The translations under genes were made by a program, and so were the position numbers. A DNA stretch of 64,000 nucleotides from Bacteroidetes bacterium 2013_40CM_41_45. GTDB taxonomy: Bacteria > Bacteroidota > Bacteroidia > AKYH767-A > 2013-40CM-41-45. The notes beneath the pieces are model-generated. The model searched no databases. It was not told the DNA's origin and saw only the letters and a program-made list of their open reading frames with translations. The stretch spans positions 361,501 through 425,500 of the forward strand of contig NGFH01000009.1 in assembly GCA_002215675.1 (NCBI GenBank), in the 5' to 3' direction. Numbering within the stretch: position 1 is the stretch's first letter; every line of letters starts with the position of its first letter. Positions 19,785 through 64,000 of this stretch are shown here, piece by piece.

Positions 19785-19805
19785 TCATCACTCATCACTC
19801 ATCAC
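19785..19805. repeat. 7-nt tandem repeat (TCATCAC x3) abutting a start codon
   Basis: Three perfect copies of tcatcac (plus tcac of a fourth) end 5 nt before the ATG at 19811. The array occupies the place where a ribosome-binding site would lie, so a change in copy number would alter the leader. Confidence 0.8.
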
Positions 19806-19810
19806 TCACG

Positions 19811-29228: not shown

Positions 29229-29244
29229 AAGTGTGGACAATGAA

Positions 29245-30237
29245 ATGTTCGCTGCAATGCCTAAATTGAAAAAGAATCTTCTTCTTCTTGCTTTCTGCAT
29301 TTTAAATTCTTTCTTCTCTGGTTTCAAATCTTTTGCTGAGAGTGCTTATCCCGATACGGTTAAAACAGGAATTTATATTACCAGCATTCATGATATTGAT
29401 TTCAAGCAAAAGGAATACACGATTAATTTTTGGCTGTGGCTGAAATATAAAAATAAGGATTTTGATTTTTTGCATAACCTGGAAATACCGGAGGCAAAGT
29501 CTTTTACGCAGTCTTTCTCCACCGTAGATTCCTCTAATAACAGGATTTATGTTTTGATGAAACTGCAATGTGTAATGAAGGATTCATGGAGGATAAATAA
29601 ATTTCCTTTCGACCGCCAGACATTGCGGCTGACTATTGAAAACTCGCAGTTCGATTCAACATCATTAGTATTTGTAGTTGATACGCTTGGTGAACATTAC
29701 GGCCGCTTTACTTTAAACGGATGGAGTATTGACAAAGACAGCTTTAATATTTCAGTAAGGAACCAACCGTACAAAACAGCCTTTGGTGATGATTCCTATG
29801 ATAAGCCATATTCTGCCTACAGCGCATTCAGAGTAAAAATAAGAATTATACGGGAAGGAATCTGGACATCGTTCTGGAAAATATTCCTAGGAATGTACGT
29901 TGCTTTTATGATTGCCTTTGCTTGTTTTTACATTCATGCTGATAGTATTGAATCGCGTTTTAACCTGAGTGTGGGTTCCCTGTTCGCTGCAATAGGTAAC
30001 AAATACATTATTGATTCAGCGCTGCCTGATTCGGCTTCTCCAACATTAGTTGATACGCTGCACGGGCTCACCCTGCTTTTTATTTTTGCTGTGATTGCAT
30101 CCACTATATATGCTCTGAAGCTTATTAAGGAAAATAAAGTAAATGCAGCCAATAGGTTTGATGGAATTATAAGAAAGGTCTTGTTGGTGTGTTACGTTAT
30201 TCTAAACGTGTATTTTATTTTCAAAGCGATGGGTTAA
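29245..30237 (+). CDS. Pentameric ligand-gated ion channel homologue (Cys-loop receptor family)
   Basis: 330 aa from ATG 29245 (ATG 29257 is equally possible). A signal peptide (about residues 8-32) precedes an extracellular beta-sandwich domain. It contains WRINKFPFDRQTLRL, matching the FPFD-x-Q segment that is conserved in this family at the Cys-loop/M1 side. Four hydrophobic helices follow: M1 (SFWKIFLGMYVAFMIAFAC), M2 (LSVGSLFAAIGNKYIIDSAL), M3 (TLLFIFAVIASTIYAL) and M4 (VLLVCYVILNVYFIF). The proline-containing M2-M3 loop (LPDSASPTLVD) is like that of GLIC and ELIC. The two Cys of the eukaryotic loop are absent, as in other bacterial members. Ion selectivity and ligand are unknown. The M2 segment carries Asn and Lys. 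Confidence 0.8.
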   Translation: MFAAMPKLKKNLLLLAFCILNSFFSGFKSFAESAYPDTVKTGIYITSIHDIDFKQKEYTINFWLWLKYKNKDFDFLHNLEIPEAKSFTQSFSTVDSSNNRIYVLMKLQCVMKDSWRINKFPFDRQTLRLTIENSQFDSTSLVFVVDTLGEHYGRFTLNGWSIDKDSFNISVRNQPYKTAFGDDSYDKPYSAYSAFRVKIRIIREGIWTSFWKIFLGMYVAFMIAFACFYIHADSIESRFNLSVGSLFAAIGNKYIIDSALPDSASPTLVDTLHGLTLLFIFAVIASTIYALKLIKENKVNAANRFDGIIRKVLLVCYVILNVYFIFKAMG

Positions 30238-31264: not shown

Positions 31265-31317
31265 AACGGGTGTGTAGTGCGCCTTTGTAAATAAAAATCT
31301 TTTTTTACCTTTACAAC

Positions 31318-31485
31318 TGTTTTGGTTCCGACTGAGTCGGATGAAAAGGGAATCCGGTTGAAATCCGGAGCAGTTCCCGCTGCTGTGAGTCCATTGAAAT
31401 GTTTCTGTTGCATTTGCCACTGTGCCGCATTAAGGCGCCACGGGAAGGGCCATAGAAACGGACAAGCCAGAAGACCTGCCACAAC
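31318..31485 (+). promoter_or_regulatory. Cobalamin (B12) riboswitch
   Basis: The conserved aptamer elements appear in order: GGGAATCCGGT-GAAATCCGG, the AGCAGTTCCCGCTGCTGTGA segment, TGCCACTG, CGGGAAGG and the B12 box AGCCAGAAGACCTGCC (31465-31480). Downstream there is a small hairpin CTGAA/TTCAG followed by TTTT (31494-31513) and another AGGGAA/TTTCCCT (about 31552-31567), which could form the expression platform. It lies 190 nt before the secreted propeller gene. Bound adenosyl- or methylcobalamin normally lowers expression of the downstream genes. Confidence 0.95.
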
Positions 31486-31674
31486 AAGAAAAGCTGAACC
31501 CACATTCAGTTTTCCATTTACGCTTCGGGAAAAAGGCGAAGGAGAAACGCAAGGGAATTGTTTCCCTGCTATTTCAATCTTCTTTTTCCCGTGTATGGTT
31601 GGTAAAAATTATTTGTAAACGGTTTGTATTTCCGTTGCGGTGGAACATCGGAGGCAGGCACAAAAACAAAAACA

Positions 31675-32991
31675 ATGAAAAGCAAAATGAAAAAAATGCT
31701 GCTCGTCCTGGCAATGTCAGGAGCAGCGCAGTTGTGCTTTGCACAGCTTACCGTCCATCGTGTGATTATTTTGAACGAGGGGCATTACGATTATGTAAAC
31801 GCTGTGCAGACGGTTCCGGTGACCATTGGCGCGTATGACCCGGCAACACAAATCTACAGCCAGTTTGGTGTGATTAACAATGCGCGGTTTGCAACGAATG
31901 TGATTACAGACGGCGCTTCCATCTATGCCGCCGCCGACAGCTTTATTGTTCGCTATGATATAGATACGTACCAGGTTCTTGCCACGGCAACGTTGCCCGG
32001 CGTGAGAAAGCTGGCTATATGGAATAACCAGCTTTTGGTTTCGCGGGGCGAATATATGGTAACATACAACTCTTATTTTTCAGTGTATGATAAGAACACG
32101 CTGCTTCCTGTTTACAGCTTGCCCGCCACTGCTAATGCGGGCCCGCAGTATGCTTCAGAAGGAATTGTGGTGACGAATGACAAAGCATACATTGCTATTA
32201 ACAATGGCTTTGAATGGGGAAATGAAAAAGGTTTAATTGGAATGGTTGACCTTCAGACGCAATCATATCTCGGAGAAATTGATTTGGGGCCAACGGGAAA
32301 AAATCCTGAATACATGGCGTTGAAGAATAACCAGCTCTTCACCGTAAACAACCGCGACTTTTCAGCGGCAAGCATCAGCGCTGTTGATTTGTCTTCATCT
32401 GCTGTCACAACGGTTGACCTTGGCATTACCAGCGGTTGCGGCGGTTCTGCGCTTGCGCTTAATGATATTTTTTACCAGCAATCGGGTAACGTAGACTTGA
32501 GAAAATTCAATACATCTACCTTGACGAATACAGGAACCGTTGCCATCAATAAAAACTTTTATGGCTTGGCTCACGATGCGGTCAACAATTTGCTGTATGC
32601 AGGTGAAACAGATTTTCTCACATGGGGAAAGATTTTTATTTACCAGTTGAACGGAACTGCGGTAGATTCTTTTAATGTAAGTGTATCACCGGGCAATATT
32701 GCTTTTGATGTGCGTAATTCAGCATCGGTAAATGAAAATAAATTTGAGAATGGTTTTTCTGTGTACCCGAACCCGGCAACGAATGAGTTATTGGTCATTG
32801 GTCATTGGTCATTAAGAAAAATTGCAATTGAAATTTATGATGAATTGGGACAAAAAGTCTTTTCTCAACCTCAAACCTCAAACCTCAAACCTCAAACGGT
32901 TATTGATATTTCCGGCTTGAATCGAGGAGTGTATGTGCTTTCTGTGACGGCTGACGGAAAATCTTTCACTAAAAAAATTGTAAAATACTAA
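31675..32991 (+). CDS. Secreted beta-propeller (YncE-like) with T9SS tail, B12-riboswitch controlled
   Basis: 438 aa from the ATG at 31675 (MKSKMKKMLLVLAMSG), although the frame is open to 31624. Signal peptide ends CFAQ. The body is a seven-bladed-propeller type: short beta blades such as QIYSQFGVINNARFATNVIT, GLIGMVDLQTQSYLGEIDLG and SISAVDLSSSAVTTVDLG. The sorting domain begins VYPNPATNEL and ends TKKIVKY. Position after a cobalamin riboswitch and the propeller fold suggest a surface cobalamin-binding protein analogous to BtuG of Bacteroides; this is inference. Two heptamer arrays (32791-32811 and 32863-32897) lie inside the sorting domain. The next gene follows after 4 nt. Confidence 0.85.
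   Translation: MKSKMKKMLLVLAMSGAAQLCFAQLTVHRVIILNEGHYDYVNAVQTVPVTIGAYDPATQIYSQFGVINNARFATNVITDGASIYAAADSFIVRYDIDTYQVLATATLPGVRKLAIWNNQLLVSRGEYMVTYNSYFSVYDKNTLLPVYSLPATANAGPQYASEGIVVTNDKAYIAINNGFEWGNEKGLIGMVDLQTQSYLGEIDLGPTGKNPEYMALKNNQLFTVNNRDFSAASISAVDLSSSAVTTVDLGITSGCGGSALALNDIFYQQSGNVDLRKFNTSTLTNTGTVAINKNFYGLAHDAVNNLLYAGETDFLTWGKIFIYQLNGTAVDSFNVSVSPGNIAFDVRNSASVNENKFENGFSVYPNPATNELLVIGHWSLRKIAIEIYDELGQKVFSQPQTSNLKPQTVIDISGLNRGVYVLSVTADGKSFTKKIVKY
32791..32811. repeat. 7-nt tandem repeat inside a T9SS sorting domain (TTGGTCA x3)
   Basis: Three perfect copies of ttggtca plus tt, in the coding sequence directly after the NPATNEL turn, encoding LVIGHWSL. Seven is not a multiple of three, so a gain or loss of one unit shifts the frame of the last 60 codons. 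Confidence 0.92.
32863..32897. repeat. 7-nt tandem repeat inside a T9SS sorting domain (CTCAAAC x4)
   Basis: Four perfect copies of ctcaaac (32870-32897) preceded by one degenerate unit tctcaac (32863-32869), coding QPQTSNLKPQT. A second, unrelated unit with the same period, 52 nt after the TTGGTCA array in the same gene. Confidence 0.92.
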
Positions 32992-43020: not shown

Positions 43021-43866
43021 TCAGTTTTTGAAAAATGTAATAAGCGAAGTGAGGCGCTTTTTGAGCTGACGCCTGTCAATAATAAAATCGAGGAAGCCGT
43101 GCTCCAGCACAAACTCAGAGGTTTGAAATCCCTTCGGCAGGTCTTTGCGAATGGTTTCTTTCACCACGCGCGGCCCTGCAAAACCAATCAACGCCCCTGG
43201 CTCTGCCATATTTACATCGCCCAGCATGGCAAACGATGCGGTAACACCGCCTGTTGTAGGGTCGGTCATCAGCGAGAAATATGGAATTTTTTCTTTCGAA
43301 AGTAACGTAAGCTTGGATGACGTTTTTGCCATCTGCATCAACGAGAAAGCGGCTTCCATCATTCGCGCTCCGCCTGATTTTGAAATCACAAGCAACGGAG
43401 TTTTTTTAACGATGCATTCATCAATAGCGCGTGAAATCTTTTCTCCCATCACCGAGCCCATCGAGCCGCCGATAAATGAAAAGTCCATACAGGCAATCAT
43501 TAAATCATTGCTATTTATCTTTCCGTATGCCGTGCGAACAGCATCGTTGAGATGTGTTTTTTTTATGGCCTCTTCAAGCCGGTCGGTATATTTTTTTGTG
43601 TCGGAAAAATTCAGCGGGTCGTCAGAAACCAGCCCGGCATTTATTTCGGTAAACTGATTCTCATCAAAAAGGATTTTGAAATAATCTTTGGACCCGATTC
43701 GCTCGTGGTAGCCGCATTTTTCGCACACATAATTTCTTTCAATGTGGTCTTTCATCGGGGCAATGCGTTTGCATGATGCGCACTTATGCCACAACCCTTC
43801 TGGGGTTTCCTTTTTTTCCAGGGTGCGGGTAGTGATACCGGCTTTTATTCTCTTAAACCAAGACAT
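43021..43866 (-). CDS. accD: Acetyl-CoA carboxylase carboxyltransferase subunit beta
   Basis: 281 aa. The N-terminal zinc ribbon has CASC and CEKC pairs. The carboxyltransferase core has the conserved SKSGGARMMEAAFSLMQMAK and LMTDPTTGGVTASFAMLGD, ending GFAGPRVV. With AccA it transfers CO2 from carboxybiotin to acetyl-CoA to make malonyl-CoA. Normal length. The 75-nt spacer to the upstream aldolase gene consists entirely of heptamer repeats. Confidence 0.97.
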   Translation of the reverse strand: MSWFKRIKAGITTRTLEKKETPEGLWHKCASCKRIAPMKDHIERNYVCEKCGYHERIGSKDYFKILFDENQFTEINAGLVSDDPLNFSDTKKYTDRLEEAIKKTHLNDAVRTAYGKINSNDLMIACMDFSFIGGSMGSVMGEKISRAIDECIVKKTPLLVISKSGGARMMEAAFSLMQMAKTSSKLTLLSKEKIPYFSLMTDPTTGGVTASFAMLGDVNMAEPGALIGFAGPRVVKETIRKDLPKGFQTSEFVLEHGFLDFIIDRRQLKKRLTSLITFFKN

Positions 43867-43868
43867 TT

Positions 43869-43945
43869 GGATTTCGGATTTCGGATTTGCAATTTCGGAT
43901 TTACTTCAATCCGCAATCAATAATTCGCAATTCGCAATGGTTCAT
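43869..43945. repeat. 7-nt tandem repeat array filling the fbaB-accD spacer (11 units)
   Basis: Eleven consecutive 7-nt units in strict register: ggatttc, ggatttc, ggatttg, caatttc, ggattta, cttcaat, ccgcaat, caataat, tcgcaat, tcgcaat, ggttcat. The consensus drifts from GGATTTC to TCGCAAT across the array. CGGATT/AATCCG within it can pair as a hairpin (43896-43913). It starts 3 nt from the accD start codon and overlaps the fbaB stop by 4 nt. Confidence 0.93.
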
Positions 43946-50761: not shown

Positions 50762-50817
50762 TCTTGACTCTAAACACTGAACTCTAAACTCTAAACTCTA
50801 AACTCTAAACTTTAATA
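50762..50817. repeat. 7-nt tandem repeat array filling the recN-fabI spacer
   Basis: Eight units in register: tcttgac, tctaaac, actgaac, tctaaac x4, then tttaata, which runs into the fabI ATG. The spacer between the recN stop and the fabI start (55 nt) consists of nothing else, so it leaves no room for a normal ribosome-binding site. Confidence 0.93.
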
Positions 50818-63319: not shown

Positions 63320-64000
63320 TCACCTCACCACGGAAATCTTCCTTGTAATAATTGCCTCTCCAGCTTTAATGCGGCAGAGATACATTCCCGTTTCAAACTG
63401 CGAAACATCAACAGTAAGTTCGTGGCTTTGGGGAATACTGCTGTAGACCATTTCACCCAAAGAATTATAAATTTCAACCACTTCAATTTTTAATTCTGCA
63501 TTCTTAATTCGTAATTCTTTTGAAGCCGGATTAGGATAAACATAGCTTTCATTGCTAAGGAAATTCGCCGGCTCAACAGCAGTATTCGGGTCGCGGTCTA
63601 TAGTGGCATTTATCATCAGGTCGTTGGTTTGGCGGAAGCGATAAATTGCCCATGTGTGATTGGTAAGCACTTCAAAGGTTCGGTTTGAGATGGGCTTGCT
63701 GATGTTTTCGCCAAGAATAATATTCGCACCGCCCATTTGCCATTCAACAAAGAAACCTCCCGAGTCAATCATTATAGGCGCGGAGAGAATTACATTGTTC
63801 CATGTTCCGGCTACCACCGAAGTGGCAGGAACCCAGACAGAATCGAGCATATTACCGGGCAACCCATTGGGGCCACCGCTTTCATAGAGCTTTGCGGCAA
63901 ATCCTACGTTTGATGCATTAGATACAATGTAGAAATGTAATTGCTTAACACGGCATGGAAAAAACGGGGGGACAAACTGAACCCCGGCACCGCCATTGCC
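63320..64000 (-). CDS. Secreted protein with T9SS type A sorting domain, 5' partial
   Basis: The frame is open to the right edge of the window, so the N-terminus is missing; the ATG at 63862 is internal. About 227 codons are visible. The first part (GGAGVQFVPPFFPCRVKQL, then SGGFFVEWQMGGANIILGEN) is a beta-rich domain of a large secreted protein. The sorting domain starts at YPNPASKELRI and ends IITRKISVVR. A degenerate heptamer array (63491-63518) lies inside it. The stop converges on gldE-gldD with 9 bp between. Confidence 0.82.
   Translation of the reverse strand, partial: GNGGAGVQFVPPFFPCRVKQLHFYIVSNASNVGFAAKLYESGGPNGLPGNMLDSVWVPATSVVAGTWNNVILSAPIMIDSGGFFVEWQMGGANIILGENISKPISNRTFEVLTNHTWAIYRFRQTNDLMINATIDRDPNTAVEPANFLSNESYVYPNPASKELRIKNAELKIEVVEIYNSLGEMVYSSIPQSHELTVDVSQFETGMYLCRIKAGEAIITRKISVVR
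63491..63518. repeat. Degenerate 7-nt tandem repeat inside a T9SS sorting domain (4 units)
   Basis: Units taattct, gcattct, taattcg and taattct. They encode ELRIKNAEL immediately after the NPASK turn, the same place as the TTGGTCA array in the gene at 31675. Confidence 0.75.

Follow-up and report, generated by a model that had tools for sequence, protein, structure and literature searches.

An important question raised by this locus is whether two tandem heptanucleotide arrays lying inside the predicted secretion signal of one gene act as a switch of protein export, or whether they belong to a wider population of repeats. The locus is found in a window of 64,000 nucleotides (the whole stretch of DNA that was analysed; contig NGFH01000009.1, positions 361,501 to 425,500) from Bacteroidetes bacterium 2013_40CM_41_45, whose genome (assembly GCA_002215675.1) comprises 3.38 Mb in 11 contigs and was sampled by stretches. 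A first-pass annotation of the window had proposed that copy-number change in the arrays could move the protein between an exported and a retained state, and that the occurrence of two different units in one domain made chance unlikely.

The gene that carries the arrays extends on the forward strand from an ATG at 31675 to the end of a stop codon at 32991, an ORF of 438 codons (residue numbers are counted here from the second codon, at 31678), and lies downstream of a cobalamin riboswitch (RF00174) at 31306..31497 on the same strand, which was detected by cmscan with a score of 101.6 bits and an E value of 2.9e-24. An AlphaFold2 model built from 13 orthologues, with a mean pLDDT of 84.7, consists of a helix at residues 2-18, an all-beta propeller at residues 24-347 (31747..32718, forward strand), a disordered linker and a seven-stranded C-terminal domain at residues 360-436. 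A sequence search of solved structures gave weak matches to BtuG and it was the fold search that was decisive, ranks 1-12 of a Foldseek search of the PDB being BtuG or closely similar Bacteroides surface proteins with E values of 1e-16 to 1e-15 at 14-16% identity, so that the predicted propeller has the BtuG fold. The C-terminal domain scores 57.6 bits against Por_Secre_tail, for which the cut-off is 27, and the Por_Secre_tail / TIGR04183 match covers residues 362-436 with an E value of about 1e-15 in the profile search. The N-terminus is hydrophobic, as judged by reading the sequence, and the helix at residues 2-18 is probably a signal peptide; signal peptide and sorting domain together are the marks of T9SS type A cargo. 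No lipobox consensus is evident by eye in the signal, which ends AAQLCFAQ, and the orthologues do without that cysteine, so the mark of a lipoprotein anchor is missing. Taken together, the fold, the riboswitch and the sorting domain make a B12 binder of the BtuG type, exported through the T9SS and not lipid-anchored, the most likely product of the gene. It resembles the BtuG cobalamin-binding surface lipoproteins (PDB 8bmz, 8okv, 8bai) in its beta-propeller, for which they are the best match, and in cobalamin-related control through the riboswitch, but, unlike them, it has a T9SS sorting domain, and its signal peptide looks ordinary, with no evident lipobox. This suggests that a BtuG-type B12 binder can be T9SS cargo. 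A protein weakly similar to bacterial pentameric ligand-gated ion channels (LGIC_1, TIGR00860) is encoded at 29233-30237 on the forward strand.

The sorting domain proper (residues 360-436, 32755..32985, forward strand), recognised both by PF18962 / TIGR04183 and in the model, has predicted strands at residues 360-365, 370-375, 382-387, 393-400, 406-410, 417-425 and 428-436. Array 1, (ATTGGTC)3.4, occupies 32790..32813 of the forward strand and encodes residues 371-379 (LLVIGHWSL), with TTGGTCA x3 at 32791-32811; in the model it falls in strand 2 and the connection between strands 2 and 3. Array 2, (AACCTCA)4.4, occupies 32867..32897 of the same strand and encodes residues 397-407 (QPQTSNLKPQT), with CTCAAAC x4 at 32870-32897, and it falls at the end of strand 4 and in the strand 4-5 loop. 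Both are tracts of 100% match as called by TRF, which confirms the arrays as first described, and their placing in the sorting signal of a B12-riboswitch propeller gene agrees with domain match, riboswitch and predicted fold. Between them lies the D388-G391 turn joining strands 3 and 4 (32839..32850, forward strand; motif L-beta3-beta4), which is array-free and conserved at alignment columns 28 and 31. Further period-7 arrays occur in the window at 50767-50815, 19785-19808, 43865-43902 and 63485-63519 (the last by TRF only), and those that were classified are intergenic or at gene edges.

The consequences of a change in unit number were worked out in silico. A gain of one unit in array 1 places the stop at residue 386 and a loss at residue 376, instead of 437, and either change in array 2 places it at residue 411, while three units amount to 21 nt and keep the frame. 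The earlier expectation that a one-unit change would destroy the end of the sorting signal is thus borne out, and by this truncation the arrays show one mark of a contingency locus, in which a non-triplet unit inside an ORF inactivates it on a one-unit change. The peptide of the array itself is insensitive to frame, since a stop-free heptamer array reads as one identical cyclic heptapeptide (e.g. LVIGHWS or LKPQTSN) from all three frames. In P. gingivalis a sorting domain that has lost its last few residues no longer supports T9SS export (PMC4804311, PMC11285876), and secretion also requires motif L-beta3-beta4 (PMC11285876). Two motifs have been shown to be important for secretion in Porphyromonas (PMC11285876), one being the D-x-x-G turn that joins strands 3 and 4, the other the C-terminal strands. 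It can therefore be envisaged that slippage in either array would truncate the sorting domain and leave the B12-binding protein in the periplasm, and that reversal would restore export, the in silico stops and the need of P. gingivalis for the last few residues both pointing this way. There is also a precedent in the heptanucleotide loci of H. influenzae, which include the hmw1A and hmw2A promoters and a TonB-dependent receptor homologue with a coding AACAACC array that has been reported as potentially phase-variable (PMC2651432). The likeness is that of a heptanucleotide tract in or near a surface-protein gene, where a frame change would truncate the product. However, the candidate or documented switching loci of H. 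influenzae mostly have 6-38 units and vary between strains (PMC2651432), whereas the arrays here have 3.4 and 4.4 copies and lack the high copy number of such loci. We regard phase-variable secretion as unlikely, and the wider distribution of the arrays bears on it further.

The arrays are not a feature peculiar to this gene, as they occur throughout the genome. With up to two mismatches allowed, TTGGTCAx3 has 36 matches in the genome and CTCAAACx3 has 21, against none for the reversed-unit controls of either, and the recurrence of the same units at many genomic places is what is expected of dispersed repeats. Exact arrays of period 7 number 15 in 464 kb, whereas each of the other periods between 4 and 21 gave 0-3, and near-exact arrays number 46, compared to 0-11. 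None of 100 dinucleotide shuffles of the window contained a match to a 24-base probe of array 1 and, taken with the genome-wide excess at period 7, this rules out a chance origin; tandem 7-nt units stand well above chance, as in other dispersed heptanucleotide repeats. That part of the earlier argument which took two different units in one domain to exclude chance therefore stands, but the cause is a genome-wide repeat process combined with a two-site pattern of the domain, and not something specific to the gene. When array density was determined in 20 spaced 20-kb stretches (400 kb at regular steps), there were 1.44 arrays per kb in sorting domains, 0.83 in intergenic DNA and 0.006 in other coding DNA (9, 29 and 2 arrays, respectively), figures that are approximate, genes having been called as simple ORFs of at least 80 codons. 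The population is thus mostly non-coding and depleted in genes, as dispersed repeats are, and sorting domains are the exception. The preponderance of intergenic arrays, which do not differ in kind, argues against a switch, as does the longest exact tract among 99 arrays, which is only 37 nt and leaves no long tail of expanded arrays. Some intergenic arrays of the GTTATAC type form inverted pairs and potential hairpins (L085:13345-13424, L087:15275-15358 and L088:17136-17195); a reverse-complement partner lies within 150 nt of 8 of 33 intergenic arrays, and shuffled flanks gave none.

The genome encodes at least 150 sorting domains (150 scored among 271 candidates), of which 145, each fetched singly, were analysed. 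They hold 28 period-7 arrays, distributed over 22 of the 145 domains, against 0-1 arrays at other periods in the same DNA; the 300-nt stretches upstream of the domains hold 2 arrays. All 28 lie either in alignment columns 8-24 (site 1, which includes array 1) or in columns 35-50 (site 2, which includes array 2), with edges reaching columns 7 and 51. The two segments flank the conserved L-beta3-beta4 motif and the C-terminal motif is spared, array coverage being zero in columns 52-76 of all 145 domains; in the window gene this part includes the C-terminal strand with motif C-t. (32959..32988, forward strand). Array coverage tracks the variability of the alignment columns (Spearman 0.62), and the strand 6-7 loop (columns 61-71), though nearly as variable, has no arrays in the 145 domains. 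The units differ from gene to gene and include TTGGTCA, AATTAAG/AATTCAG, TTTACGA, TTATCxG, AAATCCG, CTCAAAC and CAACAAA, among others. The vocabulary is shared with the rest of the genome in that 15 of the 28 sorting-domain units recur exactly among arrays elsewhere in the fetched DNA, compared to a mean of 1.9 for shuffled units, the comparison set being partly enriched by two pattern searches.

The majority of the sorting-domain arrays are imperfect. An exact tract of at least 21 nt is present in five, and that two of these five belong to the window gene is a point in favour of phase variation. Against it, no split or frameshifted sorting domain was found at the 99 arrays, of which 28 lie in full in-frame domains, although the fetch favoured intact domains. 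One candidate for an off state, at C3:129072, was rejected because what lies there, after the end of another ORF, is the remnant of a domain and not a frameshifted cargo gene. Segment length is also constant, site 1 having a median of 19 residues with arrays and 21 without, and site 2 having 22 and 21; this rules out arrays as insertions that lengthen the domain and is a further argument against switching. The proposed switch between exported and retained forms is accordingly unsupported, the copies being few, the genome-wide arrays mostly intergenic, the sampled domains unsplit and the segments constant in length.

A possible objection is that the pattern was made by selection on the protein alone, the heptamers encoding an alternating x-L-x-I pattern (ELRIKNxELRIK, QFTIYDLRFTI, LVIGHWSL) that suits strands 2-3. 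Hydrophobic residues at site 1 do occur in a similar register whatever the unit, and array density is higher in sorting domains than in intergenic DNA. However, protein selection alone does not give identity of the DNA at lag 7 in all three codon phases, and even site 1 segments without arrays show lag-7 identity above codon-shuffled controls (z 5.4); moreover, the same units are found in non-coding DNA. We consider this explanation very improbable. Weak heptads were seen in 7 of 128 array-free site 1 segments, compared to 0-1 at other lags, and the excess at lag 7 suggests that these segments contain decayed arrays.

The sharing of arrays between sorting-domain genes and intergenic DNA might alternatively mean that they serve as seams, allowing domains or their C-terminal halves to be exchanged or rearranged by recombination. 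The sorting domains of otherwise unrelated cargo genes do match in DNA over the domain only, as between the window gene and C1:641825, where the identity of 73% over 157 nt begins at the domain. These sister domains have a common CTCAAAC array at site 2, but at site 1 the TTGGTCA of the window gene is replaced in C1:641825 by a heptad of the GTTATAC type. In addition, the remnant at C3:129072 is a C-terminal half domain (L168:350-553, equivalent to C3:129021-129224) bounded on the left by an AATTAAG array, which follows immediately upon another ORF's stop codon. On the other hand, DNA similarity usually spans the arrays and neither starts nor ends there, and a single remnant is an anecdote, so that recombination seams seem quite improbable. 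Recent paralogy of whole cargo genes can be rejected as the general case behind shared arrays, similarity being mostly limited to the domain. Two neighbouring sorting domains were noted at C2:453049 and C2:453355, the second (an ORF of 101 aa) lying directly behind the end of another sorting-domain gene.

Orthologues of the window gene have the same sorting domain without the nucleotide heptads, and none of the 12 loci given by an orthologue scan of genome contigs had arrays in the sorting domain; arrays do occur in the sorting domains of other relatives. They were found in 4 of 100 such domains, three in a different genus of the same family (site 2) and one in the same order (site 1). Of 34 sorting domains from heptamer-bearing genomes elsewhere in the phylum, two had arrays, both at site 1, and of 34 from a second set of phylum members none did. 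All the arrays of relatives are confined to the same two segments as in the source genome. TTGGTCAx3 itself was found in 11 of 296 Bacteroidota genomes and in 9 of 140 genera, a patchy phylogenetic distribution of the kind seen with dispersed repeats.

Comparable elements have been described, namely the STRR heptamers of cyanobacteria and the GGGNATC / GGGGA(C/T)T heptamers of Xanthomonas and Nostoc (PMC4692102). They too have 7-nt units, few copies per array, dispersal over the genome, an excess in non-coding DNA and rarity in genes, and their unit number varies (PMC4692102). In contrast to them, the units here are not G-rich, and the coding arrays, which among those repeats are generally rare and scattered (PMC4692102), cluster at two sites within a single domain, that of the secretion signal. 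The TAACTGA direct repeats of Beggiatoaceae, cyanobacteria and five Bacteroidetes are likewise heptamer direct repeats, patchy in their phylogeny and mostly intergenic (PMC4679880), but the source genome differs in having many different units and a large coding share in sorting domains. The arrays thus belong to a known kind of element (PMC4692102, PMC4679880), and their setting at two homologous sites of T9SS sorting domains is without report in the literature searched, in which neither the tandem units of the window arrays nor anything linking T9SS, phase variation and tandem repeats was found.

The two arrays are probably ordinary members of a genome-wide population of dispersed heptanucleotide repeats, of the type that goes by the names STRR or long SSR in Xanthomonas, cyanobacteria and some Bacteroidota, that are tolerated in the variable segments of sorting domains. 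A seeding process, for which replication slippage and copying between sites are commonly proposed, would lay down arrays of 3-6 copies across the genome, using a restricted vocabulary of units. As every unit puts the reading frame out, selection would then purge nearly all arrays from coding DNA. T9SS sorting domains would be exempt at two segments only, one made up of strand 2 and its connection to strand 3, the other of the last part of strand 4 and the loop that leads to strand 5. Both segments would have little sequence requirement and, as a heptamer array gives one heptapeptide in three frames, any array of the right length would provide an acceptable strand and turn or loop. If selection then fixes total length and frame, the units would vary between genes while the domain does not. 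It was observed directly how the arrays are distributed over the genome, that in sorting domains they keep to two sites, that their units are shared, that segment length stays constant, that arrays recur in relatives and what a unit change does to the frame. The simplest account of these observations is that variable sequence is tolerated and that the arrays suit the strand pattern, and we infer that it is this tolerance and this match to the beta-strand pattern, and not a switch, that explain the confinement. Perhaps the sorting domain has even taken up STRR-like heptamers to supply its variable strand and loop sequence.

Tolerance alone is nevertheless not a sufficient explanation. The two segments carry 28 arrays in about 14 kb, roughly 2 per kb, compared to 0.83 in intergenic DNA, and this despite the exclusion of frameshifting arrays. 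Were tolerance the whole cause, the segments should be no denser in arrays than intergenic DNA; the excess argues against tolerance alone, and something may favour arrays there. The strand 6-7 loop, nearly as variable but array-free, is a further point against the account. A bolder reading is that the two fixed sites are an active diversification hotspot in Bacteroidota, where arrays would be repeatedly written in and units swapped between genes with length and frame kept, slippage or exchange changing the exported cargo in the population; to this we give no more than an outside chance. If the arrays are tolerated repeats, as we think probable, they are still of wider use. To our knowledge dispersed heptamer repeats, although known for decades, have no explanation, and many parallel natural insertions into one protein scaffold (at least 150 domains in this genome) offer a test both of how such repeats arise and spread and of where the T9SS signal tolerates variation. 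A warning follows for the reading of Bacteroidota proteins, in which peptides such as LVIGHWS or LKPQTSN may be products of DNA repeats and not conserved motifs. A rare coding case outside sorting domains was noted at L088:35-70 (C1:600035-600070), where the heptamer array of a dTDP-glucose dehydratase-like gene probably falls in a surface loop.
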